Source: Ignavibacteriota bacterium
Lineage (GTDB): Bacteria; Bacteroidota; Ignavibacteria; Tepidaquicellales; Tepidaquicellaceae
Direction of reading: 5' to 3'
Assembly (NCBI GenBank): GCA_020437545.1
Contig: JAGQWH010000014.1
Span: 1-40,912 of the forward strand
Length of the DNA: 40,912 nt
The position numbers and the translations under genes were made by a program. Positions 347-20,100 of the stretch are shown here, piece after piece. Position 1 is the stretch's first letter. Each line of letters opens with the position of its first letter. The notes under the pieces are model-generated. The model had not been told where the DNA came from and searched no databases. It worked only from the letters and a program-made list of their open reading frames with translations.

Positions 347-2803
347 ATGAAGTTAAAGTCTTTTATATTTACAGGTTTAATTACGGGAATATTAATATTT
401 ACATTAAATAAAAGCTGGAAAGTCGGTAGTCTGCAAATTCCTGCAATTGGTAAATTTTTAAGTCCTCAGCAAGGATTTTGGCAGAATGCTGAACCTTTAA
501 CCGAAGATTACAGTCAGGATCTTAAATTTCCATCTTTAAAGGGAAAAGTAGATGTGTATCTGGATGAGAGACTTGTGCCTCATGTTTTTGCAGAACAGGA
601 GAATGATGCATATTTTGTACAGGGATATTTGCATGCAAAATTCAGATTATGGCAGATGGAATTACAGACCTTTTCAGCCGGCGGGAGATTAAGTGAAATT
701 ATGGGTGTTGGAATGCTTGAACGTGACAGGCAAATGAGAAGATTAGGCATGGTTTATTCGGCAGAAAATACATTAAAAATAATTGAAAAAGATCCTGTTA
801 TGAAAGCAGTAAATGATGCTTACACTGCAGGGGTAAATGCATATATTGAAAATCTTCCTGAGAATAAGTTACCGGTTGAATATAAATTGCTGGGATACAG
901 ACCTGAAAACTGGAGCAATCTTAAGACTGTATTATTTATGAAGTATATGAGTTATGATCTTGCCGGATTTGATGAGGATTTTGAAATGACGAATGCAAAG
1001 AATTATTTTGATAAGGAAAGATTTGATCTTCTGTTCCCGATAATACAGGATTCACTTGATCCTGTTATTCCCGATGGTACGCAGATCGAAAAGCAGGGAG
1101 TATTTCCCGTAATCCCGGGGGATGTTGATTCCGTATATCTGAAAAGAGAAGAAATTGAAGTATCAGAACAGGAGAAACCAAACAGGGAAAACGGAAGTAA
1201 TAACTGGGCTGTGAGTGGCAGGAAAACCAAGTCCGGAGCTCCGATATTGAGTAATGATCTTCATTTAACAATGAATTTACCGTCAATATGGTATGAGGTT
1301 CAGATCACTGCTCCAACTGTAAATGTATATGGAGTTAGTTTCCCCGGAGTCCCCGGAGTAATAGTCGGATTTAATGACAGTTGTTCATTCGGATTTACAA
1401 ATGGAGGCAGGGATGTAAGGGATTATTATGAGATAACATTCAAAGATGAAAGCAGAAAAGAATACCGGTACAACGGGGAATGGCATCAGACAATCTGGAG
1501 ACCGGAAGTTATAAAAATTAATGGTTCACCTGATTTCACAGATTCAGTTTCTTATGTCAAACTAGGAGATGATCTATGTCCTGTAATGTATGATAATAAA
1601 TTCAGTGGTTCAAAAATATCAAACAATAAATATTATGCTGTAAGATGGAAGGGTAATGACCCGAGTAATGATCTTAAAGCATTTTATCTTCTTAATCATT
1701 CGAAGAATTATGATGATTTTAATGAGGCTGTACTTGAACTAAAAACTCCGGGACAGAATGTAATTTTTGCAACAAAAAGCGGAGACATTGCAATCAAGAC
1801 ACAGGGAGAGTGGCCGGCTAAATGGAAAGAGCAGGGAGATTTTGTAATGCCCGGTTTTGACAGCAGTTATTTATGGCAGGCAATGATACCGCAGGATGAA
1901 GTTCCTTTTCAGTATAATCCTGAAAGAGGATTTGTAAGCAGCGCGAATCAGAAGCCTGAAGATGATAAAACGTATCCGTATTATCTTGGAAGAAATTATC
2001 CAGTATGGAGAGGAAAAGAGATCAACAGAAGACTGGAAACTATGGAAAATATTACAACTGAAGATATGTTAAAATTGCAGACTGATAATTACAATATTGT
2101 AGCGGAAGTTATAAGACCATTAATTTTAGCAAATATTAATGTCAGTGATCTGAGTCCGGATGAGAAAAAATATTATGAACTATTAAAAAACTGGGATCTC
2201 CGGAATGATGCAGGTTCACAGGGAGCAACAGTCTTTGAATTGTTCTGGATGAATTTTTATAAAACAATTTATGATGATGAATACAAAGATGCTCCGAAAG
2301 TAATAAAGTATCCTGACGAGACCTCACTAATTGATGGTTTATTAAGCGATTCGGGATTTATATTTATTGATGATATAACTACTGATCAAAAAGAAACTCT
2401 GACTGACAGAGTTACAACGGCTTTTAAAATTACATCAGAGCAGTTAAATAAACATGAAAGCAAAGGCAGACTTGAGTGGGATAAATTCAAAGGGACGCAG
2501 ATAAATCATTTATCCAGACTGGTTCCATTTGGAAGATATAACATTCCAATTGGAGGGAGCAAACATAATATAAATGCAACAGAAACCATTCACGGACCGA
2601 GCTGGAGAATGGTTGTGAATTTGACTCAGGAAACGGAAGCCTACGGTGTATATCCCGGCGGTCAAAGCGGGAATCCCGGAAGCAGATTTTATGATGATTT
2701 TATTGATTACTGGGCAGAAGGAAAATATTATCCACTCTGGCTTATGACTGCAGATGAACAAAATGACAGCCGTGTGAAATGGAAAATGAGTTTTACAAAA
2801 TAA
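347..2803 (+). CDS. penicillin acylase family Ntn hydrolase (N-acyl amidase/AHL acylase type)
   Basis: 818 aa, the usual size of a penicillin-acylase precursor. Enzymes of this family hydrolyse N-acyl amide bonds (penicillin G, acyl-homoserine lactones, the acyl chain of pyoverdine precursor by PvdQ). They are made as one chain that cuts itself into alpha and beta subunits before a nucleophile Ser. Here GSNNWAVSG places that Ser at residue 284, giving an alpha part of about 283 residues including the signal. Residues 5-20 are hydrophobic and look like a signal peptide or membrane anchor, so the enzyme probably acts outside the cytoplasm. The family-typical segments YFVQGYLHAKFRLWQME (90-106) and, near the C-terminus, HGPSWRMV and GGQSGNPGS are present. 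The start is an ATG directly before the hydrophobic leader. It is the first gene of an apparent NRPS operon; removal of a fatty acyl group from the matured peptide is an inference from PvdQ. Confidence 0.9.
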   Translation: MKLKSFIFTGLITGILIFTLNKSWKVGSLQIPAIGKFLSPQQGFWQNAEPLTEDYSQDLKFPSLKGKVDVYLDERLVPHVFAEQENDAYFVQGYLHAKFRLWQMELQTFSAGGRLSEIMGVGMLERDRQMRRLGMVYSAENTLKIIEKDPVMKAVNDAYTAGVNAYIENLPENKLPVEYKLLGYRPENWSNLKTVLFMKYMSYDLAGFDEDFEMTNAKNYFDKERFDLLFPIIQDSLDPVIPDGTQIEKQGVFPVIPGDVDSVYLKREEIEVSEQEKPNRENGSNNWAVSGRKTKSGAPILSNDLHLTMNLPSIWYEVQITAPTVNVYGVSFPGVPGVIVGFNDSCSFGFTNGGRDVRDYYEITFKDESRKEYRYNGEWHQTIWRPEVIKINGSPDFTDSVSYVKLGDDLCPVMYDNKFSGSKISNNKYYAVRWKGNDPSNDLKAFYLLNHSKNYDDFNEAVLELKTPGQNVIFATKSGDIAIKTQGEWPAKWKEQGDFVMPGFDSSYLWQAMIPQDEVPFQYNPERGFVSSANQKPEDDKTYPYYLGRNYPVWRGKEINRRLETMENITTEDMLKLQTDNYNIVAEVIRPLILANINVSDLSPDEKKYYELLKNWDLRNDAGSQGATVFELFWMNFYKTIYDDEYKDAPKVIKYPDETSLIDGLLSDSGFIFIDDITTDQKETLTDRVTTAFKITSEQLNKHESKGRLEWDKFKGTQINHLSRLVPFGRYNIPIGGSKHNINATETIHGPSWRMVVNLTQETEAYGVYPGGQSGNPGSRFYDDFIDYWAEGKYYPLWLMTADEQNDSRVKWKMSFTK

Positions 2804-2837: not shown

Positions 2838-3209
2838 TTGAAATTTATTTTATCTTTAATTTTAATGGCTTTGTTAAGTTATGCAGCAAGTTTGTATCTG
2901 CCGTGGTGGAGTATTGCAATAGTAGCATTTTTAGTTTCGGTAATAATTCCATTGAAACCGGCTAAAGCTTTTATTTGTGGTTTCTTATCACTGTTTTTGT
3001 TATGGGGCGGTATGAGTTATATAATAAGCAGTAACAACGGGAATATATTAGCTCAGAAGATATCTCAACTGATGATATTCATGAACAGTCCGTTTTTACT
3101 GATAATACTTACAGGTTTGATCGCAGGACTGGTTGCTGGCTTTGCATCTTTGTCAGGAAGTTATCTGAGATACCGGAAAGAGGATAATTATCATAATAAA
3201 CTGGCATGA
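2838..3209 (+). CDS. small four-helix membrane protein of unknown function
   Basis: 123 aa, very hydrophobic, with four predicted membrane helices at about residues 2-20, 23-39, 44-63 and 84-106, and a basic/polar tail (RYRKEDNYHNKLA). I do not recognise a family. The start is TTG at 2838; the first in-frame ATG would remove half of helix 1, so TTG is preferred. It begins 34 bases after the acylase stop. Its TGA overlaps the ATG of the thioesterase (ATGA), so the two are probably translationally coupled and belong to the operon. A role in membrane anchoring, export or immunity is possible but nothing in the sequence proves it. Confidence 0.75.
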   Translation: MKFILSLILMALLSYAASLYLPWWSIAIVAFLVSVIIPLKPAKAFICGFLSLFLLWGGMSYIISSNNGNILAQKISQLMIFMNSPFLLIILTGLIAGLVAGFASLSGSYLRYRKEDNYHNKLA

Positions 3210-3937
3210 GCAGACCTATAAAAATATTTTGTCTTCCATATGCCGGAGGCAATAAATATTCATATCGTGAACTTGAGGAAGCGGCTCCTTCGAATTATGT
3301 ATTTCATACTCTGGATTATCCGGGGAGAGTTTCGAGAATCAAAGAACCTCTTATATCAGACGCAGATGAACTTGTTGAAGATCTGTTTAATCAAATCAAA
3401 ACAAAAATAAGTGATGAAGATTATGTAATGTATGGTCACAGCATGGGTGGACTTCTTGCTTATTTACTCACTAGAAAATTAGTTCAAAACAATTACAAAG
3501 CACCTTTGCACTTGATAATAACAGGAACTTCGGGTCCTTCAGTATTTGAAAAAAGAGAAAGAAAGAGACATTTAATGCCCCAGAAAGAATTCATTCAGGA
3601 AATGAAAGATCTTGACGGAATACCTGAGGAGATACTAAATACAGAGGAGCTTATGGCATTTTTTGAACCGATTCTGAGATCAGATTTTAAAGTTTGTGAA
3701 AATTACATTCATAGATATGACGAACCATTGAATATCCCTATTACAGTTATAACGGGAACGGAAGAAGACATGGAAGAAGAAGATATCCTTCTGTGGCAGA
3801 AAGAAACCAATCTTGAAATTGATTTTAACAGATTAGAGGGAAAGCATTTTTTTATTTTCAAAAAGAAGAAAGAAGTTATGGATATAATTGAGAAAAATTT
3901 ATCTGTAAATGCAAATTTCAGAAAAGCATACAACTAA
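3206..3937 (+). CDS. type II thioesterase (external NRPS editing thioesterase)
   Basis: 243 aa, alpha/beta-hydrolase fold of the GrsT/SrfD type (typical length 230-250 aa). These enzymes act in trans to remove wrong or stalled acyl groups from carrier-protein phosphopantetheine arms. Visible marks are the N-terminal FCLPYAGG (8-15), LDYPGR (36-41), the nucleophile elbow GHSMGG with Ser79, a likely acid Asp188 in TGTEEDME, and His214 in EGKHFFIF. The ATG overlaps the TGA of the membrane-protein gene, so it needs no leader of its own. It lies about 1 kb before the first NRPS gene, as such thioesterases usually do, and so most likely serves this line. Confidence 0.93.
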   Translation: MSRPIKIFCLPYAGGNKYSYRELEEAAPSNYVFHTLDYPGRVSRIKEPLISDADELVEDLFNQIKTKISDEDYVMYGHSMGGLLAYLLTRKLVQNNYKAPLHLIITGTSGPSVFEKRERKRHLMPQKEFIQEMKDLDGIPEEILNTEELMAFFEPILRSDFKVCENYIHRYDEPLNIPITVITGTEEDMEEEDILLWQKETNLEIDFNRLEGKHFFIFKKKKEVMDIIEKNLSVNANFRKAYN

Positions 3938-4053: not shown

Positions 4054-4854
4054 ATGGAAACAAAATTTAAAGATATTGCTACAGTATCGGAATTATCAAA
4101 AAATGAATTTGACAATAACTATTATAAACCAAGCATACCGGTCATAATAAAAGGCGGGGCAAATGATTACAAAGCATATAAGAAATGGTCGCCGGAATAT
4201 TTCAGTTCACTTTTTGGAAAGAAGAAAGTAGATGTCAGAACAAGTCAAAGTGGCGTATATGATTATCACAAAGGAAGTGTTTCCAGAGTATTTCTGCCGT
4301 TTGATGAAGCGGTGGATTACATTAAAGAAAATAAGGCTTATTATCTTCAGCAATCTTCCATACCGGATAATTTTCCTGAACTGCTCGGAGATCTTGATGA
4401 ACCAATGTGGATGGAAGAAACTGATAAAAATAAAGTAAGAAATTTATGGATCGGCGGCGTAGGTTGCGTATCACCTTTACATTTTGACGGATCGGATAAT
4501 TTTCTGATTCAGATCAAAGGGAAAAAAGAGATCATACTCTTTCATCCCGATGATGATAAATATCTTTACCCGAATGTCCACGGTCCAAAGACTTTAAGAC
4601 AGATCAGTCTTATAGATCTTGATAATGTAGATCATAAAAAATTTCCACTCTTTGAAAAATCTCAGGCGTATAAAGCTACAATTGGACCCGGAGATATTTT
4701 ATACATCCCCTTACACTGGTGGCATCATGTCAGATCCCTGGATTTTTCAATAAATATAAACTACTGGTGGAACAGGAAAAACCTGAGGTATTATAAATAT
4801 TATACAAAAGCTGCAGTATCCACTCACACAAAAAGGCTTACAAAAAAATATTAA
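4054..4854 (+). CDS. JmjC/cupin_8-like Fe(II)/2-oxoglutarate-dependent oxygenase
   Basis: 266 aa. The fold is recognisable from the facial triad: LHFDGSDN gives His143 and Asp145, and IPLHWWHHV gives the distal His (probably His224). The segment KGKKEIILFHPDD between them holds the lysine expected to bind 2-oxoglutarate (about Lys158). GPGDILYIP precedes the distal His, as in FIH- and JMJD5-like hydroxylases. Such enzymes hydroxylate amino-acid side chains. Beside an NRPS the likely substrate is a free, carrier-bound or peptide-embedded residue; which one cannot be read here. The gene has its own 116-base AT-rich leader and lies 95 bases before the first NRPS gene. No signal peptide is seen, so it is cytoplasmic. 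RNA or protein hydroxylation is an alternative role. Confidence 0.85.
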   Translation: METKFKDIATVSELSKNEFDNNYYKPSIPVIIKGGANDYKAYKKWSPEYFSSLFGKKKVDVRTSQSGVYDYHKGSVSRVFLPFDEAVDYIKENKAYYLQQSSIPDNFPELLGDLDEPMWMEETDKNKVRNLWIGGVGCVSPLHFDGSDNFLIQIKGKKEIILFHPDDDKYLYPNVHGPKTLRQISLIDLDNVDHKKFPLFEKSQAYKATIGPGDILYIPLHWWHHVRSLDFSININYWWNRKNLRYYKYYTKAAVSTHTKRLTKKY

Positions 4855-4949: not shown

Positions 4950-7900
4950 ATGCAGAAAGCAACATTTCCAATGCATCCGGCCCAGAAGGATATTTATGTG
5001 GATCAGTTGATAAATAAAGACAGTCCACATTATAATCTTGGCGGATACATTAAATTAAAAGGTTCACTCGATAAAACAAAATTCTTTGAATCCGTGAATT
5101 CTGCTCCGTTTGTTTTTGATGTTTTTAAAATGAGATTTGATAATGAAGATGAAGAAGCAGATTTTTATTTAACTGAAGAGTCAGGTGATAGCGGAATAGT
5201 TGAGATTGATTTTTCCGGAAAGCAAGATCCGGAAAAAGAGGCAATTATCTGGATGCAAAACCGATTTAATACAACCTTTATTTTAAGAAAAGAAAATCCG
5301 TTATATGAACATTCTCTTTTAAAATTATCCGATAAAGAACACTGGTTTTTTGGAAGATATCATCATTTGATCACTGATGGGTTTGGATTTATAGTATTCA
5401 TTAAATATGTTGCTGAAAAGTATAAAACATTGACTGAAGGCGGGGATAATGAATTTAATTATCCTTCTTATCTCGAAGAGATCTCAAAGTCAGGTGAATA
5501 TTTCAATTCGAAAACATTTGGTAATGATGAAAATTACTGGAAAGAAAAGTTCAGTGAAAGATCTGAACCATTATTACAGAGAAAATATATAAGGACTGAT
5601 AAATCTGTAAATGTTAATGGAAAGTATGTTGTAAATATACCGGAAGAAGAAAAAGTTGAGTTATCTGAAATTGAAAAGTCAACGGATTCCGGAATTCAAC
5701 AATTAATTTTAGCAGCATTAATAATTTATTTTGGTAAGACTTCAAATGTAATCGAACCCGTAATAGGTATTCCGGTGCATAAAAGAAGTTCGAAGGTATT
5801 ACGAAATATAGTAGGGATGTTCAGCGGTGTATTGCCATTCAAGGGTGTTTATAAAGAAGATCGTACAGTAAAAGATCTGTTGCAGGAGATCAAACAGGCA
5901 CAGAGAAGTGATTACCGGCATCAGAATTATCCATTAAGCGAGATAAAAAGAAATCTTAACGAAAGTTCAGCAGGAGTTAGGCGTCAAGATAATTTATTTG
6001 AAGTTAGTTTTAATTATGAACCTTTAAATTTTTCACCTGACTTTGGCAGTGAAATAAAATCTGAGATCATAAGACTGGAAAGTGATTATGATACAAATCC
6101 GTTGCAGTTATTCTGGCGGGATTATGGTGAAGAAAGCCCGGTTCAGTTTATTGTTAAATTCAGTAAGGAGTATTTTAATGAGACTGAAATTGAGCTGTTT
6201 GTAAACAGATTATTATTTGTTATAAAGAAATTTCCGGAAAATCTTTCAACGGAATTGAAAGGCTTTGGTATTATTCCTGAGGCGGAGGAGAGTTTGCTGA
6301 AGAGATTCAATGATACATCTTCGGTAAGTAAAACGGAATTTAATTCCGTTTTACTTATAGACATGATACACGATCAGGAAAAGAACACCCCTGATAAACC
6401 CGCACTGGTTTTTCACGACGAAGAGCTTACATATCAGGAACTAAGTGAGCGTTCGAACAGACTCGCAAATTATTTACATTCAAAAGGCGTAAAAAAAGAA
6501 ACCCTGGTTCCGGTTTGTATAGAAAGAAGTATGGATATGATTGTTGGAATTATTGGAATTCTTAAAGCAGGCGGTGCCTATGTCCCGATTGATCCCGAGT
6601 ATCCTGCAGACAGGATAAGTTACATGCTAAAAGATACAGATGCATCTATTGTGTTAACCGGCAGTAAGAGTTCTTTAAAATTACCTGAGTCAGAAAGTAT
6701 AAAAAAAATAATTCTTGATGATCCCGAAACAATTTTAGAAATAAAAAAACAATCATCAGAATATCCAAACACTGATTTGAAATCTGACAATGCAGTTTAT
6801 GTGATATATACTTCCGGCTCGACTGGTAAACCAAAAGGTGTTGTCATTGAGAATAATACAGTAGTTAATCTGATCAAAGCTCAAAGTGAATATTTCAATA
6901 TTACGTCTGATGACAGAATCTTACAGTTTTCGAATTACAGTTTTGATGCGTCTGTCGAACAGATATTTCTGGCTTTGACTAATGGCGCAACATTAGTGCT
7001 ATTCCGTGAAAGACTTCAGCTTGATCAGGATAAATTCAATGAATATTTAACTGAGAAGAATATAACTCATCTTCATGCAACCCCGGCATTTCTTGAAAAT
7101 ATTATAACGGACAGCACCATTTTCACTGATCTGAAAAGAGTAATAGCAGGAGGTGATATTTGTAAAAAGGAATTAAGTGATCAATGGAAAGGAAAGGTGA
7201 AGTTTTATAATGAATACGGACCGACAGAGACAACAGTCACAGCCATAGAATACCTCGCAAATAAAAATGAGGAAGTATTCAGTTATATTTCTTTACCAAT
7301 AGGCAGACCTCTAACCAATATAAAGGTAAACATTGTAAACAGGAATAATGAGATCTGTCCGATCGGAGTTTCAGGTGAGATATGTATATCAGGAAATTGT
7401 CTGGCGAGAGGATATTTAAATCTGCCTTCATTAACTGAGGAAAAGTTTGTTATGAATCCATATGGAAAGGAAAGCGGAGAGTTAATGTACAGAACCGGTG
7501 ATCTTGGAAGATGGATGACAGATGGAAATATAGAATTCCTGGGAAGAATAGATGATCAGATAAAAATTCGCGGTTACAGAATAGAGCTTGGTGAAATAGA
7601 AACCGTCATACTTGATTCAGGGCTTGTAAAAAATTCAGTAGTATTATCCGGGATAGACAGCAGCGGAAATAACAGACTAGCGGCTTATGTAATACCTGAC
7701 AAGGTATTTGACCGCGATAAGATCAGAAATTATCTTAGTAAAAAACTACCTGAATATATGATACCGGCTGTCTGGGTTGAAATGAAATTTTTTCCTGTAA
7801 CATCCAACGGTAAAATAGACAGGAAAGCTTTTCCAGATCCTGAGATAAGTGAAACAATAAGTGCTCATTATCAGGAAGCAGAAAGTGAAATAGAAATTAG

Positions 7901-10900
7901 ATTAACAGAATTATGGAAAGAAATTCTGAAAATTGAAAAAATAGGAATAAATGATAATTTCTTTGAACTTGGCGGTCACAGTTTGAATGCTGTCAGACTA
8001 TCTTCAAAAATAAATAAGCTGATGAATATAAGAACTGACATCGGGACCATATTTTCAAATCCGACTATATTCAGACTTGCAAAGGCAATTGAGATTGAAA
8101 AGAAGAGTCAGTTTACAGAAATTAAAAAACAACCAGAAAAGGATTTTTATGAATTGTCACATGCTCAGAAGAGATTCTGGATTCTGAGCAAATTCAAAGA
8201 TGGATCAGAAGCTTACAATATTTCAAATCTGTTTGAGATAGCCGGCAATTTAAATTCTGAAGCTTTCAGATCAGCTTTCAAAGAAGTGATGGAGAGGCAT
8301 GAAATACTCAGAACTGTATTTGTTGAAAAAAACGGTGAACCATATCAGAAAATACTTTCTTATGAGAGTACGGGATTTGAAATATTTGAAAAAGATCTGA
8401 CGGGATATGAAAACGCTGAAGTCATAATAAAAAAATACCGGGATGAAGATGTAAAGAAAGTATTTGATCTTGAAACCGGTCCGCTTATCAGAATTTATTT
8501 GTTCAGGATTTCAGAAGAAAAACATTTTGTGCTTTTCAATATTCATCATATTATAAGTGATGGCTGGTCAAAGGGAATTTTGATTAAAGAGTTTTTACGT
8601 TTATACAATAGTATCTGCCTGAAAGAAGAAAATGATATAAAGCCACTTCCGATACAATATAAAGATTATACTTCCTGGCACAGTTCAACATTTGAAGAGC
8701 AGGGAAAATACTGGAGAGAAGTTTATAAAAACGGAATTCCTGTTTTGGGTTTCCCGGCAGATAATGAAAGACCGGAAGTTCTGTCATATTCAGGAGATAA
8801 AATCAGGATGACAATTTCGGAAGAATTGACTTCAAAGCTTCAGAAGATGGCAATCAGGAATAATGTTTCTCTGAATAATTTAATGCTGATCCTTTATGGA
8901 TTAAATGTAGCTGCGAAAAGCGGTCAGGAAGATGTTGTAATCGGAACAGTGAGTTCAGGAAGAAGTCACCCTGATCTAGAGGAACTTGTGGGAGTATTCA
9001 TAAATTTTCTTCCGATCAGATTTTTACCTGAGAAGCATCTGAGATTGTCCGAATTTATTGATAACTGCAGAAATGATATTGTAGAAGCATTCAAAAATCA
9101 GGATTATCCTTTCGATCTAATGGTTGAGGATAATATTAAAAAGAGGGATGTCTCGAGGAATCCATTTTTTGATACTATGATGAATTTTCAGATCGATGAA
9201 AATTTATCAGAAAAGAATTCTGAAATTTCAGAAGAGGAAATCAATCCGAATGCCATTGAACTAAAACCTTACGGCTCAGGTAATGAAGATCTTTTTCAGT
9301 CAGTTTTGGACTTTAAACTTGATGCTGTACCGGAAGATTTAAAAATTAATTTACATTTAAGTTATAATACTAAGTTATATTCGGAAGAAAGAATGAAAGA
9401 ATTTCTGAATGATTACATCCGGTTGCTTGAAAATGCTGTCAGTAAGCCGGATAATTATTTGTCAGAATTTATTAAGTGGAGTAATGAAAATAAAAATATG
9501 CAGCCGGATAATAATATAAATACAGAATCAGATTCAGAAAAATCAACTGTGAACTCAATGCCCGTTAATGTATGCTCTTCATTTGTGATAGAGCCTGTAA
9601 AGGAATACATGGAATACTGGAGTAATGAGATCGATATAAATATTAATATTGATCTTGCACCATATAATCAGGTATTTCAGCAGTTAATGAATCCCGGGAG
9701 TTTATTGTACAGTGACAAAGGAATTAATTTTTTATTCATAAGAACGGAAGACTGGCTGAAAGATAAAAAAGAAATCAGTTCTTCAGAACAGATAGATTTT
9801 TTAGATAAGACGTTTAAAGAGTTTAAGGAAATATTTATAAATGCCGTTAACAAAATTTACATCCCGTTTTTAGTAATGATCGTCCCGGTGAATATTATAA
9901 CGGAAAAAGATTTTCAGAAAGAAACTGTTGCTCATTTAGATAAAATAAATAAAGTGCTTGATCTATTTCTTAAGGAGATACCTTCTGTACAATACATAGA
10001 GATCGATATTATAAAAGATCTGTATGATGTCGGGGAAATTTATGATCCGAAAACAGATGAACTCGGGCATATGCCATTTACACCTGAGTTTTATGCAGCT
10101 CTCGGAACATATATGACAAGAAAGGTCAGCGCTTTTATGAATCCTTCTTACAAAGTAATTGCTCTTGATTGCGACAATACTTTATGGAAGGGAGTTTGCG
10201 GAGAAGCAGGAGCGTTAAATGTTAAGATCGATGAGAACCATACTGATCTGCAGGAATTTTTCATCGAAAAATACAACGAAGGATTTTTACTTGTATTGAG
10301 CAGCAAGAATAATAAAGAAGATGTGTGGGAAGTATTTGACAAACATCCCGGGATGAAATTAAAGCGTGAACATATTGCTGCGCACAGGATCAACTGGGAT
10401 CCTAAGCCGCAGAATCTTTTATCGATAGCGAAGGAATTAAATCTGGGTATCAACAGCTTTATATTTTTAGATGACAATGAATTTGAGACTGATCAGATGA
10501 CACAGAACTGTCCTGATGTATTATCATTAACCTTGCCCGATGAAGATGAAAGTTTTTCAGAATTCTTAAATCATATCTGGGCATTTGATTATTTCCGGAT
10601 CACTGATGAAGACAGAAAAAGAAATGAGATGTACAGAGTTGAAAAACAGAGAAAGACAGAGGAAGAAAATTTCGGAACGCTGGAAGATTTTCTGAAATCA
10701 CTTGAGATAAAAGTAAATATGAAATCTCCTGAACCAAAAGATCTTGAAAGGGCGGTTCAGTTGACATTGAGAACAAATCAGTTCAATCTAAACGGTGTTA
10801 GAAAAACTCCTGAAGAAGTAAAAAGTTACATCAATAACGATAATTCCATTTGCAGAATTATTGATGTAAAAGACAGATTCGGAGAATACGGCATAGTAGG

Positions 10901-11174
10901 TTTGATACTGGGAAAAATTAACGGAAATGCTCTTGATGTTGATACATTTCTTTTAAGCTGCAGAGTACTGGGCAGGAATGTGGAAGGAACGATCTTAACA
11001 GAGCTTGAAAATTATTGTAATGAAAAAGGATTAAGCGTGATCAATCTTAATTTTCAGCCAACACAAAAAAATAAGCCATTTCAGGAATTTCTTGCAAACT
11101 CAGATTGGAAGATTGATACAAAGACAAACTTGCACAGTAAAATCATAAAACTTACAGAGGAAACCGCGGTTTAA
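4950..11174 (+). CDS. NRPS, C-A-T-C-FkbH: initiation module and glycerate half-module
   Basis: 2074 aa. C domain at 1-450 with HHLITDG at 138-144; its N-terminus (HPAQKDIY) and the DGFGF after the His motif resemble starter/first-module C domains, so it may N-acylate residue 1. A domain A1 at about 468-960: TSGSTGKPKG near 621, Asp666 anchoring the substrate amine, A10 Lys955. Hand-read code DAEHIGEVTK is not a standard one, and the acidic positions 239 and 322 might suit a basic or amino side chain (weak). T domain at 975-1050, LGGHS with Ser1011. Second C domain at 1066-1510, intact HHIISDG at 1199-1205. FkbH domain at about 1535-2060 with DCDNT (1740-1744). No carrier follows: the partner T is the first domain of the next protein, and the two coding regions are in the same frame, separated by one TAA. 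The order implies X1 is passed to a glyceryl thioester, giving an ester bond. Confidence 0.95.
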   Translation: MQKATFPMHPAQKDIYVDQLINKDSPHYNLGGYIKLKGSLDKTKFFESVNSAPFVFDVFKMRFDNEDEEADFYLTEESGDSGIVEIDFSGKQDPEKEAIIWMQNRFNTTFILRKENPLYEHSLLKLSDKEHWFFGRYHHLITDGFGFIVFIKYVAEKYKTLTEGGDNEFNYPSYLEEISKSGEYFNSKTFGNDENYWKEKFSERSEPLLQRKYIRTDKSVNVNGKYVVNIPEEEKVELSEIEKSTDSGIQQLILAALIIYFGKTSNVIEPVIGIPVHKRSSKVLRNIVGMFSGVLPFKGVYKEDRTVKDLLQEIKQAQRSDYRHQNYPLSEIKRNLNESSAGVRRQDNLFEVSFNYEPLNFSPDFGSEIKSEIIRLESDYDTNPLQLFWRDYGEESPVQFIVKFSKEYFNETEIELFVNRLLFVIKKFPENLSTELKGFGIIPEAEESLLKRFNDTSSVSKTEFNSVLLIDMIHDQEKNTPDKPALVFHDEELTYQELSERSNRLANYLHSKGVKKETLVPVCIERSMDMIVGIIGILKAGGAYVPIDPEYPADRISYMLKDTDASIVLTGSKSSLKLPESESIKKIILDDPETILEIKKQSSEYPNTDLKSDNAVYVIYTSGSTGKPKGVVIENNTVVNLIKAQSEYFNITSDDRILQFSNYSFDASVEQIFLALTNGATLVLFRERLQLDQDKFNEYLTEKNITHLHATPAFLENIITDSTIFTDLKRVIAGGDICKKELSDQWKGKVKFYNEYGPTETTVTAIEYLANKNEEVFSYISLPIGRPLTNIKVNIVNRNNEICPIGVSGEICISGNCLARGYLNLPSLTEEKFVMNPYGKESGELMYRTGDLGRWMTDGNIEFLGRIDDQIKIRGYRIELGEIETVILDSGLVKNSVVLSGIDSSGNNRLAAYVIPDKVFDRDKIRNYLSKKLPEYMIPAVWVEMKFFPVTSNGKIDRKAFPDPEISETISAHYQEAESEIEIRLTELWKEILKIEKIGINDNFFELGGHSLNAVRLSSKINKLMNIRTDIGTIFSNPTIFRLAKAIEIEKKSQFTEIKKQPEKDFYELSHAQKRFWILSKFKDGSEAYNISNLFEIAGNLNSEAFRSAFKEVMERHEILRTVFVEKNGEPYQKILSYESTGFEIFEKDLTGYENAEVIIKKYRDEDVKKVFDLETGPLIRIYLFRISEEKHFVLFNIHHIISDGWSKGILIKEFLRLYNSICLKEENDIKPLPIQYKDYTSWHSSTFEEQGKYWREVYKNGIPVLGFPADNERPEVLSYSGDKIRMTISEELTSKLQKMAIRNNVSLNNLMLILYGLNVAAKSGQEDVVIGTVSSGRSHPDLEELVGVFINFLPIRFLPEKHLRLSEFIDNCRNDIVEAFKNQDYPFDLMVEDNIKKRDVSRNPFFDTMMNFQIDENLSEKNSEISEEEINPNAIELKPYGSGNEDLFQSVLDFKLDAVPEDLKINLHLSYNTKLYSEERMKEFLNDYIRLLENAVSKPDNYLSEFIKWSNENKNMQPDNNINTESDSEKSTVNSMPVNVCSSFVIEPVKEYMEYWSNEIDININIDLAPYNQVFQQLMNPGSLLYSDKGINFLFIRTEDWLKDKKEISSSEQIDFLDKTFKEFKEIFINAVNKIYIPFLVMIVPVNIITEKDFQKETVAHLDKINKVLDLFLKEIPSVQYIEIDIIKDLYDVGEIYDPKTDELGHMPFTPEFYAALGTYMTRKVSAFMNPSYKVIALDCDNTLWKGVCGEAGALNVKIDENHTDLQEFFIEKYNEGFLLVLSSKNNKEDVWEVFDKHPGMKLKREHIAAHRINWDPKPQNLLSIAKELNLGINSFIFLDDNEFETDQMTQNCPDVLSLTLPDEDESFSEFLNHIWAFDYFRITDEDRKRNEMYRVEKQRKTEEENFGTLEDFLKSLEIKVNMKSPEPKDLERAVQLTLRTNQFNLNGVRKTPEEVKSYINNDNSICRIIDVKDRFGEYGIVGLILGKINGNALDVDTFLLSCRVLGRNVEGTILTELENYCNEKGLSVINLNFQPTQKNKPFQEFLANSDWKIDTKTNLHSKIIKLTEETAV
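6325..6357. repeat. 33-base perfect inverted repeat in the C-A1 linker
   Basis: Two 16-base arms, taagtaaaacggaatt (6325-6340) and aattccgttttactta (6342-6357), are exact reverse complements separated by one T. They lie inside the coding sequence, in the linker between the first C domain and A1 (encoded SKTEFNSVLL). The RNA could fold into a long tight hairpin. Equivalent linkers in other modules do not carry it. Confidence 0.9.
9552..11159 (+). other. FkbH-like HAD domain (glyceryl loading) at the C-terminus of the first NRPS
   Basis: HAD-superfamily subfamily IIIC/FkbH domain. FkbH proteins take 1,3-bisphosphoglycerate, remove phosphate and load glyceryl on a carrier protein, as in FK520, tetronate and bryostatin pathways. 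Visible here are the DxDxT motif (ALDCDNTLWKGVCGEAG, residues 1738-1754), SSKN about 35 residues later, FLDDNEFE near 1837 (the acidic HAD motif), and the C-terminal acyltransferase-like part with LRTNQFNL and SCRVLGRNVEG. Nothing essential seems missing. It is fused directly behind a C domain instead of standing alone, and the receiving T domain is encoded by the next gene. Confidence 0.88.
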
Positions 11175-11180
11175 AATATA

Positions 11181-14100
11181 TTGAAGAAAAAGCAATCAAA
11201 TACATTAAAAGGCAAAACAGGAAAAGACCTTCTTAGTTTACTAAGTTCTAAAGATAAGAAAGCCGTTAGTCCTGAAAACAGAAACTTTATTGCTCCGGAG
11301 AGTGAAACTGAAAAAATTCTGTTTGAGTACTGGAAGACCTTGCTTGGGCATAGTGATTTCGGAACGGGCGATGATTTCTTTATGAGTGGCGGAAACAGCA
11401 TAAAAGCTATTCAGCTGCTGTCCCGAATCTCTTCGCATTTTTCCGTTGAACTTGAGACAAGTGAAATTTTTCTAAAGCCAACCATTTCTCAGTTATCTGA
11501 ATTAATAGATAAGAAAAAAGAAAACAGATCTGATCAAAGATCAGAAACTTCTATTTTAGTCAGAAAAAGACCTGAAGAAATTCCATTATCATTCAGTCAG
11601 GAAAGATTGCTGTTCATAGACAAGTTAGAAGGAAGTTTGCAGTACCATTTACCGGCTGTATTTAAATTAAATGGAAAGCTTAATAAAGAAGCTTTAGACA
11701 GTGCTTTAAAAGAGATCATCAAAAGACATGAAATTCTTAGGACGGTATATTTTGAAATTGACGGAAAATCATATCAGAAGGTCAATGAAAATAAAGTTTG
11801 GAAATTAAATGAATCTGACGGAACAATATTTACTGGTGATCCTGAAGGATTAAGAAAATATATTCAGCAATTGATAAACAAACCATTTGATCTTTCAAAT
11901 GATCACATGGTAAGAGCAGATCTTATCAACATCGGGGCTGATGAAAATATTTTAGTTATAACATTACATCATATAGCTTCAGACGGATGGTCAGTTACAA
12001 TATTTGCAGAAGAGTTTCTGGAACTATACTCCTCGTTCATAGAAAACCGGAAGAGTATTTTGCCTGATCTGAAGATACAATATGCAGATCACGCAATGTG
12101 GCAGCGTGAAAATATTCACGGTGAAATTCTGAATCACAAACTGGATTTCTGGAAAAAAGAACTTAAGGGAGTTGAACCACTCGAGCTGCCGACAGATCTT
12201 CCAAGACCAAATCTTCAAAGTATCCGCGGTGCTTCCGTAAAATTTAAAATTGAAAATGATTTAAGAGAAAAACTTACCGTTTTAGGTAAAGAAAATAATG
12301 TTACACTTTTCATGACCTTGTTTTCTGCATTCAATGTTCTGCTTTACAAGTATACAGGTCAGGAAGATATATGTATAGGAACTCCTGTAGCAGGAAGACA
12401 AAAGCAGGAATTTGAAAAACTCATCGGATTCTTTATAAACACTCTTGCATTGAGAAACGAAGTGAAAGGTAGTTTGCCGTTTACTGAATTTTTAAAAGAA
12501 GTCAAATCAAATTCTCTTAGAGCTTTTGGAAATCAGGAAGTACCTTTTGAGAAAGTAGTGGAAGCAACTGTCAAAGAGAGGATACTAAACAGAAGCCCAT
12601 TGTTTCAGGTAATGTTCATACTTCATAACACTCCCGAAGCTGAAGCTTTGAAATTACAGGATGTAAAAATTGAAAGAGAAGATCTAATCCCAGAAACATC
12701 TATGTATGAAATTACTTTCAATATCACTGAAACTCAGAGTGAATTGAAATGTGAGATCATATACTGTACGGATCTGTACAAAGAGAATACGATTTTACGA
12801 ATGGCAGATCATTATTCAGAGCTGCTGAATTCCATTATTAGTTCGCCTGAAGAAAATATTGATTCATTATCAATATTAACCGAAGCTGAAAATGCTATAT
12901 TAAATTCATTTACCGGAACTACTGCAGAATATCCTGAAAAGAAAAATATTACAGATATTATAGATGAACAGGTAAAGAGAACTCCGGAAAACACAGCGTT
13001 GATTTTTGAAGATCTGAAATTGTCATATCTTGAACTTAATAAACGTTCTAATCAGATCTCAAATTTTCTGTTAAGTAAAGGGATTAAAGAAGAAACATTA
13101 ATTCCGATCTGCATAGAACGGGGATTTGAAATGATTGCCGGAATACTTGGAATTCTGAAAGCAGGAGCAGCCTATGTTCCCATTGATCCCGAATATCCTG
13201 ATGACAGGAAAAAGTTTATATTAGAAGATACAGGAGCTGAAATTATTCTCAGCAGTAAGAAATGCAGTTCAAAAATTCCAATTGAATATTCAGATATAGT
13301 TGCAGAGCTTGACACAGATTCAGAGATAAGAAGTCAGTCAAAAGAAACGCCGGAAGTAAATATTGGTCCGGATAATCTTGCTTATATAATTTACACTTCG
13401 GGTTCGACCGGTAAACCGAAAGGTGTAATGATAGAGCACGGATCAGTTGTAAACCTCATTTATACCCAGACAAATTATTTTAAGTTAACAAGTGATGAAA
13501 GAATTTTGCAATTCGCAAATTACAGTTTTGATGCATCAGTCGAACAGATCTTTTTAGCATTATTTAATGGTCTGCCTTTGGTTCTGTTTCCTGACGGATT
13601 GCAGCTCAACAAAGAGCTCTTTGAAAAATATTTAGTTGATCAGAAAATAACACACCTTCATGCTACTCCGACATTCCTTGAAAATATAAAACCGGAAAAT
13701 CACAGTTATTTAAAAAGAGTCATAGCCGGCGGTGATGTATGTAAACCGGAGCTGGCAGAGTACTGGAAAGATAAAACCACTTTTTATAATGAGTATGGTC
13801 CGACTGAGTCAACTGTAACAGCAATAGAATTTAACGCATCAGAAAATAAAATTATTGGCAATACACTTCCGATCGGTAAACCACTTTCCAATATTGAAGT
13901 TTACATCCTTGATAAAGCCGGAAAGAAGCTACCTGTTGGAATCAACGGAGAGTTGTATTTAGGAGGTGATTGTTTAGCCCGGGGGTATTTGAATTCATCT
14001 GATCTTACAAAAGATAAGTTCATAAGAAATCCTTTCAATTATAAAAGCGATTCAAGATTATATAAAACAGGAGATATCTGCAGATGGCTTGAAGACGGCA

Positions 14101-17100
14101 ATATTGAATACAAAGGCAGAATAGATGATCAGGTAAAGATCAGAGGTTTCAGAATTGAGCTTGGTGAAATAGAGAGTGTCATTCAGGAAAGCGGATTGGT
14201 TAAGCAGTCTGTTGTAATAGCAGCGGATACATCAACAGGAGGAAAGAGACTAATCGGATATATTGTGCCAAAAGGGAAATTTGATAAAGATGAAATAGTT
14301 GCATATCTGAGCAGCAAACTACCTGAGTATATGATCCCTGCAATATTTGTAGAAATGGAAAGTTTGCCATTGAATAAGAACGGAAAGGTTGACAGAAAAG
14401 CTTTACCGGATCCGGATCTGAGTGAACTTCTGACCAATGAATATGAAGCTCCCCGAAATGAAATTGAAAATTCTTTAGCCGGGATTTGGAAAGAATTGCT
14501 CAATGTAGAAAAAGTCGGTATCAATGATAATTTCTTTGAACTCGGAGGTGACTCAATTATAACTATACAGGTAGTCAGCAGAGCAAGGAGAAACGGTATC
14601 GAATTGAAACCTGCAGATATATTTATTTATCAGACTATCAGAAAATTATCAGCAGCAATAGAGACAAGATCAAAGGAAATTTATTCAGGTGAGCAGGGAA
14701 TGCTAACCGGTACCAGCGGATTACTTCCAATTCAGCAAGCATATTTTGAAAGAGCAGGGAAGGACATTTCGCATTTCAATCAAAGCATTCTGCTTGGAAT
14801 AGATAAAAGTATAACACAGGAAATGCTCGGTAATGCTGTAGAAAATTTAACATCATATCACGATGCATTAAGATTTGAATATCATAAAAATGAAAATGAA
14901 TGGGTACAGAAATACGGAACTGCAAATGGGATTTTACTGACTGTTGATCTGAGAAAATCAAAAGCCGGTAAAAAGGAACTGGAAAATTTAATTAAAGAAC
15001 ATGCTGAAAAATATCAGAAGAGTCTTAACATAGAAAAAGGCGAACTTGTAAGATTTGTGCTTGTATTAACACCTGAAGAAGAATTAAATAACAGGATATT
15101 TATTATCATTCATCATCTTGCAATTGATGGTGTCTCCTGGAGAATATTACTTGGAGATCTTGAAATGTTTCTGGATAATTACCGGAATGGCATGGAACTG
15201 GTGCTTGATGAAAAAGGAAGTTCATACAGACAATGGTATCATGCACTTGAAGAATATGGAAAGAGCAAGAGATTATTATCACAGGAAAATTTATGGAAAC
15301 AATTTTCGGACAGCTGTAAACCAATTAAAGTCGATAAAGAATATTCAGAGCAATTACAGGCAAAAGATTTTGAGTTAAAAACAGTTGAACTTGATCAGAC
15401 TAATACTCAGCTATTGTTAAAGGATGTCCCGGGTATATATCATACTGAAATAAATGATATTTTAGTTTGTGCTTTAGCATTAACTTTATGCGGCAGAGAA
15501 AAGTCTGAACAGATTACAATAGGAATGGAAGGGCATGGACGTGAGGAAATTTCGGACAATATAGACCTTAGCAGGACTGTAGGGTGGTTCACAAGTTTAT
15601 ATCCTGTTATGCTGAACATTGGTGCAGAAAAAAATATTGAGGATCATATAAAGTCTGTAAAAGAGCAGATGAGAAAAATTCCGGATAAAGGTCTTGGATA
15701 TGGTGTGCTGAAGTATATTAATAAGAACGAAAATTTTTCTGAAAGTGTTACTCCGGAAATCTTATTCAATTATTTAGGACAACTTGATAATGTGACAGGC
15801 GAGAAAAATATACTTTCGGGAACTCCTGAAGCAGCCGGAACAGACATTAGTGCAGAACAAAAGATAAACGAGAAACTTACTATAAATGCGATCATTAAAA
15901 ATGATCGCTTAACACTAAACTGGAATTACAGCAGTAAACATTTTGAAACTGATACTATCAATAAACTCACCGAAGATTATTTAAAAAATCTGAATTCAAT
16001 AATTACTCATTGCATTGAACTTGAAAATACAGGAGCAATTTATACACCATCAGATTTTGGACTTGGCTCTGAGATCAGCTATAAAGAACTTGACAGATTT
16101 CTTGATGAAAAATACGGAGATTCAATACGAAGAGAAAAAATAGAATCTATATACAGATTAAGCGGACTGCAGGAGGGAATGCTTTTTCATGCATTGTATG
16201 ATACTGATGGCGGAGCATATATTGAGCAGTTGAGTTGTGATCTTAAAGATCCTGATATTGAATTGATCAGGAAGAGCTGGAATCAACTTATCAAAAATCA
16301 CAGTTCGCTTAGGAGCGGATTTTATAATGATGTGTTTAGAATTCCCGTACAGGTAGTATACAGGGATGTGGAGATGCCGGTAACACTACTGGATCTAAGC
16401 GGGATGGAAAGAGAAGAGCAGATTGCGGCTGTAGAGAGATTTAGCGAAAAAAACCGTTTAAACGGTTTTTCCCTGAGCGCCGTGCCGCTTATGAACATCT
16501 GCATGATTAAACTCGATGAAAACAATTACAAAATGGTATGGACTTCACATCATTTGCTATTCGACGGCTGGTCACTTGCAATCCTGATGGAAGAGTTTTT
16601 GAAGACTTATGAAAATCTTGTAGGCGGTAATGAAATTGTAAAAACAGATTCAGATAATTATCTGGATTATATTAGATTCATTGAGAGGAAAGATAAAGAT
16701 GTCCAGCTTAATTACTGGAAAAATTACATGGAAGGTATTGAGCAAAGTACTTTGCTTCCATTTCCGGGAATCACTACTCAGCGAACTAAAGGCATCGGCG
16801 AATATGATTCTCTCAATCTGATACTGAATGAAGAGACCAGACAGAAAGCAGAATCATTCGCTCAAAAGAATCGATTAACATTGAATACCTTATTGCAGGG
16901 CGTATGGTCTTATCTTCTGCACAGATATACGGGAAGTGAAGATGTTGCATTCGGGGTGATCGTATCAGGCCGTCCGGATGAACTGCCGGGTATAGAAAAA
17001 AAAGTCGGACTATACATTAACACACTTCCTTTACATTCCAGACTTGAACTTAACAATAATGCAGAGACGATCAACTGGCTGCAGGACATTCAAAGCAGGC

Positions 17101-20100
17101 AGGTTGAATCTGCAAAATTTCAATACACACCTTTACAGGAAATACAGAATCTTACCGGTATAAGTGGTGATCTTTTTGACAGTATAATTGTCTTTGAAAA
17201 TTATCCGCTGAATGAACTGATCAGATCAAAGAACTGGAAACTGAAAGTTGATAATGTCCGGATGAAGGAGCAAAGCAATTATCCTTTATCATTACTCATA
17301 AATAATTCGGATCAGATAAATATTAATTTCATTTATAATAAAGACATACTAAACAACGAATATATAAATGAAATAAGCAGACACTTTGAAAATGTACTTA
17401 AGCAGATAATTTCCGGTGAGAAAGAAAGTATCAATGATATAAATTTACTTTCAGAATCTGATGAGAAAAAATTATTAATTGAATTTAATGATACGACAGC
17501 TGTATATCCCGGTAATAAAAGCGCTATAGAATTATTTGAAGAGCAGGTATTAAATACGCCTGATTCTGTTGCAGTGGTTTACGGGAATGATAGCATTTCT
17601 TATAAGGAACTCGATGAACGGGCAAATAAACTGGCTAATCATATAATTGCAAAAGGTATTAATCCCGGTGATAAGATCGGGCTGCTGTCTTACAGATGTA
17701 TAGATATGATGACAGGCATATTCGGTATCCTGAAAGCGGGATGCGCATATGTTCCATTCAATACTGATTACCCGGCAGAGAGAATAAAATTCATCACAGA
17801 GGACTGCGGAATTAAAAATATTATTTATACCGATAAAGGTTTACTTGAAAAAAGCGGATTAGAAGATTCAGCTGTTTATGATTTTATTTACATAAAAGAT
17901 TCAGAATCTGATTCAGCTAAAGCTCCCGGTATAAAAACAGATATCGATTCATGTATTTATGTGATGTTTACTTCCGGAACAACCGGCCGTCCGAAAGGTA
18001 TTGCAGTAAGTCACAGAAATGTAATCAAGCTGGTTTATGATACCGGCGGCATTGCGATCAGAGAAGGTGACCGCGTGCTTCAATGGTCTAACTATTCCTT
18101 TGACGGTTCTACTTATGATATTTATGGTTCGCTTCTGACCGGTGCAAGTCTTCATCTGATAAAAGATGAATGGGCTTCTGACGGGGATGAACTTGCGAGA
18201 GTGATCACTGAACAGAAGATCTCTGTTGTTTTTATGACAACAGCTCTTTTCAATACTATAGTCGATATTAATTCAGAGGCATTCAGAGGATTGAGGAAAA
18301 TATTATTCGGCGGTGAGATGGTTTCGCTTTCACATGTTAACAGAGCTCTTGATGTCACAGGTGAAAATGTGATAATGCATGTTTACGGACCGACAGAGAC
18401 AACTACCTACGCAACTTCTTATCCTGTTAATGAAAAAAGAGATGAAGGTACAGTTCCGATCGGAAAGCCTTTATCGAATACTCAGCTTTACGTTCTTGAT
18501 CCTTCAGGAAAATCTGTGCCTGTTGGTGTTGGAGGGGAACTGCATATAGGCGGTGATGGCGTATCGATGGGTTATATAAATAATGAAGAATTAACAAAAG
18601 AAAAATTTATAACAAATCCTTTCAGCAAAGATCCGGATTCAAGAATTTATAAAACTGGCGACTTATGTAGATGGACTTCTGAAGGGAATATTGAATATCT
18701 CGGAAGGATAGATGATCAGGTAAAGATCCGAGGATACAGAATTGAACTCAGTGAGATCGAGAGTGTGCTGTTTGAAATTGATTCTGTAAGTAATGCAGTC
18801 ATACTTGCAAAAGAAGATAAGGCAGGAACAAAAAAACTTGTTGCCTATGTCGTTCCGGAAGACGGATTTAAGTTTAATAAAGATGAGATCACAACTAAAC
18901 TCAGAAGCAAACTTCCTGATTATATGATCCCTGCTTTATGGGTTGAAATGGAAAGTCTGCCTCTGAATACAAGCGGGAAGATCAATAAGAAGGAATTACC
19001 TGATCCCGATGCAAGTCAACTTCTGAGCAATGAGTATGTTGCACCGCGAAATGAAACTGAAGAAAAACTGGCTGCAATCTGGAAAGATCTTTTGAACATA
19101 GAACAGGCGGGAGTGAATGATAACTTTTTTGAACTCGGCGGACATTCTTTATTGGCAATGAGACTGATCTCGGCTATCAGGAGAGAATTTAATTCTGAAT
19201 TAGGTATAAAAGATATTTTTTATTATCCGACAATTGCTGAACTGGCTGAGCAAATTGGCAAAGAAAATCCGGTGTCAGTTTTACCGGCTGTTGTATCAGG
19301 TGAAAGACCTAAACATATTCCTCTGTCATTCAGTCAGGAAAGACTATGGTTTATTGACCGTCTTGAAGGAACGGTTCAGTATCATATTCCGGCTGTATTC
19401 AGATTGAAAGGTGAACTAAACAAGGATGCTTTATCAAAAGCATTGCAAAGTATAGTTGAAAGACATGAAGTTTTAAGAACTGTTATCTATGAAAAAAATG
19501 GAACAGGATATCAAAAAATTCTTAATTGTAAGGATTGGTCTCTAAACGAATCGGACGGATCTGACATAAAGAAAGATCCGGACAGTCTTCAGAATTATAT
19601 TCAGGATATAATAAATAAACCCTTTGATCTTTCTGCTGATTATATGCTGAGAGCTGATCTGATAAAAACAGATGAGAAGGAAAGTATTCTTGTTGTGACG
19701 ATGCATCACATCTCATCAGACGGCTGGTCGCTTTCAGTGATTGTAAATGAGCTGGCTGAATTGTACAAAGCTTTTGATGAAAACAGAACTCCTGACTTGT
19801 TACCTATGCCGATCCAGTATGCGGATTTTTCTGTCTGGCAGAAAAAATATCTGACTTCTGAAGTACTGGATAAGAAGCTTGAATACTGGAAATCGAGATT
19901 GACCGGAGCCGAACCGCTTCAGCTTCCTGCAGATTTTACAAGACCTGCTGTGCAGAGTATCAGAGGCGCTTCATATGAATTTAAGATAAGCAAAGAACTG
20001 ACTGATAAACTCGAGCAGTTGTCAAAACAAAAAGGCGCTACTTTGTACATGACCTTACTTGCAGCATTCAATGTACTTCTGTACAGATACAGCGGGCAGA

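Follow-up and report, generated by a model that had tools for sequence, protein, structure and literature searches.

The nonribosomal peptide synthetase (NRPS) of vioprolide has the order FAAL-ACP-C-FkbH-T (fatty acyl-AMP ligase, acyl carrier protein, condensation domain, FkbH and carrier domain); its C domain esterifies glycerate and its FkbH was shown to activate 3-phosphoglycerate (PMC8949500, PMC10099666), and corramycin has the same architecture (PMC10099666). The cystomanamide line (ctmA-D, Cystobacter fuscus) contains an internal C-FkbH-PCP (peptidyl carrier protein) as module 4, with the predicted order Asn-Asn-Phe-glyceric acid-Tyr, and glyceric acid is present in cystomanamide B (PMC9581180). 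In malleicyprol biosynthesis, the C domain of BurF forms an ester with a hydroxy acid bound to a carrier, as tested with a His mutant (PMC12304814), and the FkbH of suomilide/dysinosin charges an NRPS carrier protein with glycerate (PMC8609519, PMC13122637). Here, a C-FkbH//T module (// marking a gene border) was analysed in DNA of an Ignavibacteriota bacterium, the window being the whole 40,912-base contig JAGQWH010000014.1 (C55), one of the 429 contigs of the assembly. We infer that this module, C2-FkbH//T2, probably incorporates glycerate by way of an ester as unit 2 of a 14-unit NRPS line.

The domain order in the window is that of VioA (vioprolide) and ComK (corramycin), but these two stand at the start of their lines and receive a FAAL-loaded fatty acid from an ACP, whereas the donor in the window would be a T-bound N-acyl amino acid. 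BurF likewise has C, then an FkbH-type N-terminal extension (the NEX domain, defined in PMC12304814), then T; it retains the NEX part alone and its hydroxy acid is supplied from elsewhere, whereas the FkbH of the window is complete. The suomilide and dysinosin units are loading modules without an upstream C domain, and hence make no ester to a preceding residue, whereas the window has C2. An earlier note on this DNA had called glycerate rare in NRPS products and named vioprolide as the case; this was too strong, as the internal module of cystomanamide, corramycin and suomilide/dysinosin have all been published (PMC9581180, PMC8949500, PMC10099666, PMC8609519). The internal position of a glycerate module is thus already on record for cystomanamide, and the new details are the split module, the acyl-aminoacyl (Lys/Orn-like) donor, the acylase heading the cluster and the host group.

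NRPS gene 1 (4950-11174, 2074 aa) encodes Cstarter-A1-T1-C2-FkbH (A, adenylation domain) and NRPS gene 2 (11181-27056, 5291 aa) encodes T2-C3-A3-T3-E-C4-A4-T4-C5-A5-T5-C6-A6-T6-E (E, epimerization domain), while NRPS gene 3 is truncated by the contig end. A related-locus scan of the genome contigs gave a single match, the sister genome G002 of the same genus, where the region lies on the 137,693-base contig CALMST010000252.1, the C-FkbH//T order is identical and the FkbH region is 86% identical. The line is complete in G002, with four NRPS genes of 2074, 5289, 8041 and 2484 aa that encode 13 adenylation modules, the FkbH module and a terminal thioesterase (TE), giving 14 units. In both genomes the FkbH module is flanked by modules on both sides (C1-A1-T1-C2-FkbH // T2-C3-A3...). 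The coordinates and the domain order proposed in the earlier note (C-A1-T, an intact C, FkbH, T in the next gene, C-A) hold, with Pfam, TIGR01686 and G002 in agreement, and the C-FkbH//T match is evidently not due to chance. The module consists of the following parts:

8139 to 9494, forward strand: C2, LCL-like condensation domain with HHIISDG at 8544-8564 (residues 1199-1205), proposed to catalyse the ester-forming step (Pfam residues 1064-1510, trees)
9582 to 10124, forward strand: N-terminal extension of FkbH (NEX-like), about 180 aa, covered by a phmmer match to 3slr
10146 to 10619, forward strand: phosphatase (HAD) part of FkbH with D1740, D1742, T1744, S1785, K1819, D1841 and D1842 (TIGR01686, 25-sequence alignment)
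10620 to 11129, forward strand: acyltransferase part of FkbH with N1943-Q1944-F1945-N1946, C2004, R2005, R2009, E2012 and N2041 (25-sequence alignment)
11172 to 11183, forward strand: in-frame junction TAA AAT ATA TTG, dividing the module between FkbH and T2, kept in G002 as TAA AAC ATA TTG
11292 to 11516, forward strand: T2 carrier with GGNSI at 11388-11402, presumed to accept glyceryl from FkbH (first domain of gene 2, residues 38-112 of the 11181-27056 protein)

The FkbH unit at 9582-11129 in gene 1 is complete. The family model TIGR01686 (NCBIfam) matched residues 1733-2050 with 290 bits, well above its cut-off (147), and the whole-genome search (E=5.5e-88) showed this to be the only FkbH of the genome. 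When aligned with 24 relatives, it kept every strongly conserved residue, including the HAD motifs DxDxT, S/T, K and DD and, in the acyltransferase half, the Cys of SCRVLGR (C2004). The proposal of the earlier note depended on an FkbH with its catalytic residues, and the conserved positions were all present in the 25-sequence alignment. Between the window and G002, the ratio of nonsynonymous to synonymous substitution rates (dN/dS) was 0.027 in the HAD part and 0.134 in the acyltransferase part of FkbH; C2 gave 0.145 and T2, whose active site is present, 0.083. In the FkbH tree, the protein paired with an FkbH from a Niallia plasmid (91%) within the carrier-fused assembly-line FkbHs (82%), apart from the free-standing envelope-type proteins.

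Genes 1 and 2 share a reading frame, in which one TAA, located in the short FkbH-T2 linker, and six bases are followed by a TTG start at 11181. No ATG was found ahead of T2 in gene 2, indicating that gene 2 begins with this TTG or is reached by another route. C, FkbH and T usually lie on a single polypeptide in C-FkbH-T modules, a feature that does not define them, and this is not so here; the other gene borders of the line break at E//C and T//C rather than within a module. Because the conserved in-frame TAA parts FkbH from T2, both C2 and FkbH would have to serve T2 in trans. Loading in trans is unremarkable, since FkbHs commonly act on free carrier proteins (PMC7489565), while it is less common for a C domain to reach an acceptor in trans. 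Readthrough of the junction at 11172-11183, giving a fused gene 1-gene 2 form, is conceivable.

FkbH relatives were found in 30 of 395 genomes of the Bacteroidota phylum, mostly as free-standing proteins of 560-730 aa or as FkbH-T loading units. Among these genomes, a C domain directly before FkbH was seen only in G166, besides the window and G002; the G166 gene encodes C-FkbH-T-C-A-T-E-TE, in the order of cystomanamide modules 4-5. The plasmid pMEGANia of Niallia taxi (L048:16344-23366) encodes KS-T-C-FkbH-T-reductase (KS, ketosynthase) with a complete FkbH in a BurF-like order. The search for the C-FkbH-T order elsewhere, suggested in the earlier note, thus yielded two more lines. The G166 ending (L058:3755-12715, 12708-18965) is preceded by a line with an A-less C-T-E module.

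The active-site motif HHxxxDG of C2 is intact (HHIISDG). In two C-domain trees, built from sequences other than those of vioprolide and cystomanamide, C2 grouped with the LCL domains and formed a long branch by itself; it lay apart from the LCL family particular to this line, of which C3 is a member. A special clade of FkbH-linked or ester-forming C domains was absent from both trees. C2 had seemed to group with TycC6 and the Niallia C domain in the sparsely sampled first tree, and this grouping did not survive the inclusion of further C domains from Bacteroidota and Bacillota. Because the Niallia C domain linked to FkbH grouped with LCL domains of Bacillota and the one in G166 with DCL domains, C domains were joined to FkbH on more than one occasion, with no diagnostic clade. 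The ester-forming C domains characterised so far mostly classify as LCL (PMC12304814); the placement of C2 is what an ester-former would be expected to show, yet it is no evidence for one, and the C-domain phylogeny put forward as a check in the earlier note cannot decide the question. Likeness to SgcC5, which we take to be the solved chain 4znm, was also considered as an ester signal and was dropped, C2 being no closer to it than C3.

The ester is instead derived from acceptor chemistry: since glyceryl-S-T2 offers hydroxyls and no amine, the product of C2 would have to be an ester if T2 carries glyceryl. The joining of X1 to a glyceryl hydroxyl, as the earlier note had it, is accordingly the best reading of an intact HHxxxDG motif and an amine-free acceptor, and the part of the argument that was to come from C2 phylogeny gave no proof. 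From what is known of the family, FkbH would draw glyceryl from a glycolytic metabolite of the bisphosphoglycerate type, dephosphorylate it and load it on the pantetheine of T2 on the next polypeptide. C1 would attach a fatty acyl group to residue 1 (Lys/Orn-like) on T1, C2 would let a hydroxyl of glyceryl-S-T2 act as nucleophile on the acyl-aminoacyl chain, and C3 would then couple the carboxyl of glycerate with the residue 3 amine, placing glycerate inside the chain. Extension by modules 3-14 and release by the TE, present in G002, would complete the product. The domains on either side of the module are:

4956 to 6299, forward strand: C1, starter-type condensation domain with HHLITDG at 5361-5381, a weak match to the other C domains of the line; the closest solved chains are 7c1k/7c1h ('NRPS modules'), which we take to be the lipo-initiating starter C of RzmA
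6360 to 7829, forward strand: A1, specificity line DAEHIGEVTK, 57% identical to A3 (Pfam AMP-binding at residues 475-823 of the 4950-11174 protein, code extraction)
7875 to 8099, forward strand: T1 carrier, GGHSL (Pfam PP-binding at residues 984-1047 of the same protein)
11574 to 12893, forward strand: C3, LCL-type, within the line's own LCL clade, proposed to pass the glyceryl thioester to the amine of X3
12954 to 16022, forward strand: A3 (code as A1)-T3-E, the module after glycerate, predicted to add a D-residue (domain and code extraction)

The code DAEHIGEVTK of A1 and A3 was read as Lys/Orn-like from published codes, and on the same footing the other A domains were taken to specify Ile, Ser, Phe, Pro, Ser, Thr, Leu, Val, Pro, Val and Thr. 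Modules 3, 6, 8 and 11 are each followed by an E domain. The most likely product predicted from these assignments is a lipo-depsipeptide, acyl-(Lys/Orn)-O-glycerate-D-(Lys/Orn)-Ile-Ser-D-Phe-Pro-D-Ser-Thr-Leu-D-Val-Pro-Val-Thr, in which the other hydroxyl of glycerate stays available for cyclization or processing. The internal glycerate foreseen in the earlier note is a natural prediction, as the line runs through 12 further amino-acid modules to the TE in G002. No peptide of this kind from the Ignavibacteria group was found described in the literature search.

A1 (6360-7829) and A3 (12954-14402) lie on either side of the glycerate module and have the same specificity line; their 57% identity is above that to any other A domain, a likeness that suggests a duplication around an inserted glycerate module. 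Two modules of the line carry methyltransferase domains. An FkbM-type methyltransferase (PF05050, 33131-33958) is inserted in the Ser-coded A8 (31688-34090), as in G002, and occupies the usual N-methyltransferase site; O-methylation of serine is a possible role. The nucleophile motif of the TE in G002 (C252, at the C-terminus of the fourth NRPS gene) reads GRCFGG, with Cys where Ser is usual.

The G002 cluster contains an Ntn (N-terminal nucleophile) acylase, a type II thioesterase, a cupin_8/JmjC oxygenase, the four NRPS genes and an ABC transporter. In the window, a 123-aa open frame sits between the acylase and type II thioesterase genes, and the accessory genes are:

347 to 2803, forward strand: Ntn-type acylase (penicillin amidase family; Pfam PF01804, 632 bits) with intact nucleophile Ser284 and an N-terminal membrane/signal segment, a candidate maturation enzyme
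3206 to 3937, forward strand: type II thioesterase (Pfam PF00975)
4054 to 4854, forward strand: Cupin_8/JmjC-type oxygenase, likely an amino-acid hydroxylase (Pfam PF13621)

The acylase gene is the first of the cluster in both genomes and its product is 92% identical to the G002 copy; its best solved relative is a D-succinylase, not PvdQ. In the complete G002 line no FAAL was recognised, and C2 is preceded by Cstarter-A-T instead. The complete G002 cluster also holds no dehydrogenase, methyltransferase or ketosynthase gene for turning glyceryl into methoxymalonyl or tetronate units, the genes whose roles in the conversion of glyceryl-ACP are described in PMC7489565. Use of glyceryl for methoxymalonyl or tetronates was ruled out on these grounds, and because the conversion genes are absent, no use of glyceryl other than direct incorporation is evident.

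Several points weigh against the insertion of glycerate as an internal ester. The product of the line is a prediction only; the AlphaFold model of FkbH, built from two sequences, was too poor for use (pLDDT, predicted local distance difference test, 51; pTM, predicted template modelling score, 0.32); nothing in the sequence of C2 marks it as ester-forming, and it scored 101 bits with SgcC5 against 132 bits for C3, which is presumed to form amides; no docking domain was recognised on either side of the FkbH//T2 split, so that contact between C2 and T2 is assumed; and the substrate of FkbH is not fixed by sequence conservation, as family members can differ. Some FkbH family members have been proposed to load lactate, and FkbH-like domains in some polyketide synthase loading modules to supply it. 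With such a hydroxy acid the module would still form an ester and the product would lack glycerate, but the catalytic positions of the window FkbH are all conserved and the FkbHs of published NRPS assembly lines have been assigned glycerate (PMC8949500, PMC10099666, PMC8609519), leaving this substrate quite improbable. That the module is degenerate or bypassed, its halves uncoupled by the conserved TAA and the product free of glycerate, would agree with a split inside a module that shows no docking domain; C2, FkbH and T2 are, however, under purifying selection between two species, the junction is conserved rather than decaying, and many FkbHs work on separate carriers (PMC7489565), which makes such a loss of function highly improbable.

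The acylase bears on a further possibility, in which glyceryl-T2 is the true start unit and C1-A1-T1-C2 adds a removable acyl-aminoacyl ester cap, later stripped by the Ntn acylase or an esterase. Modelled on fatty-acid removal from the vioprolide precursor, it agrees with the proposed glycerate insertion on assembly and differs in the mature product. An acylase gene with intact Ser284 heads the cluster in both genomes. Acylases of this family, of the PvdQ type, usually cut amides, however, and the enzyme may remove only the fatty acid of residue 1. Maturation by loss of a fatty acyl group is described for vioprolide and possibly for corramycin (PMC10099666), and glyceric acid and Tyr, both present in cystomanamide B, are missing from cystomanamides A, C and D (PMC9581180), which may reflect ester cleavage. 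Taken together, a removable cap appears unlikely. A bolder form, which we regard as unlikely, makes the glycerate ester a programmed break point: an acyl-aminoacyl-O-glyceryl precursor would be built in trans and its head removed by the Ntn acylase or another hydrolase, releasing an active peptide with N-terminal glycerate. Incorporation of glycerate through an ester thus stays the probable function of C2-FkbH//T2.

If so, the small set of glycerate-inserting NRPS modules, so far represented by a handful of products of myxobacteria and cyanobacteria, now extends to Ignavibacteria, and the complete G002 line yields a concrete product prediction for this bacterial group. The two-gene, naturally split form lets ester transfer from C to T be studied with separate proteins, while the glycerate module itself opens no new class of chemistry. 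In both the cystomanamide line and the window, an internal elongation module has FkbH instead of an A domain, preceded by C and followed by a C-A module. The cystomanamide module is listed as one module, stands at position 4 of 5 and follows C-A-PCP-E, whereas that of the window stands at position 2, follows a module without an E domain and is cut between FkbH and T.

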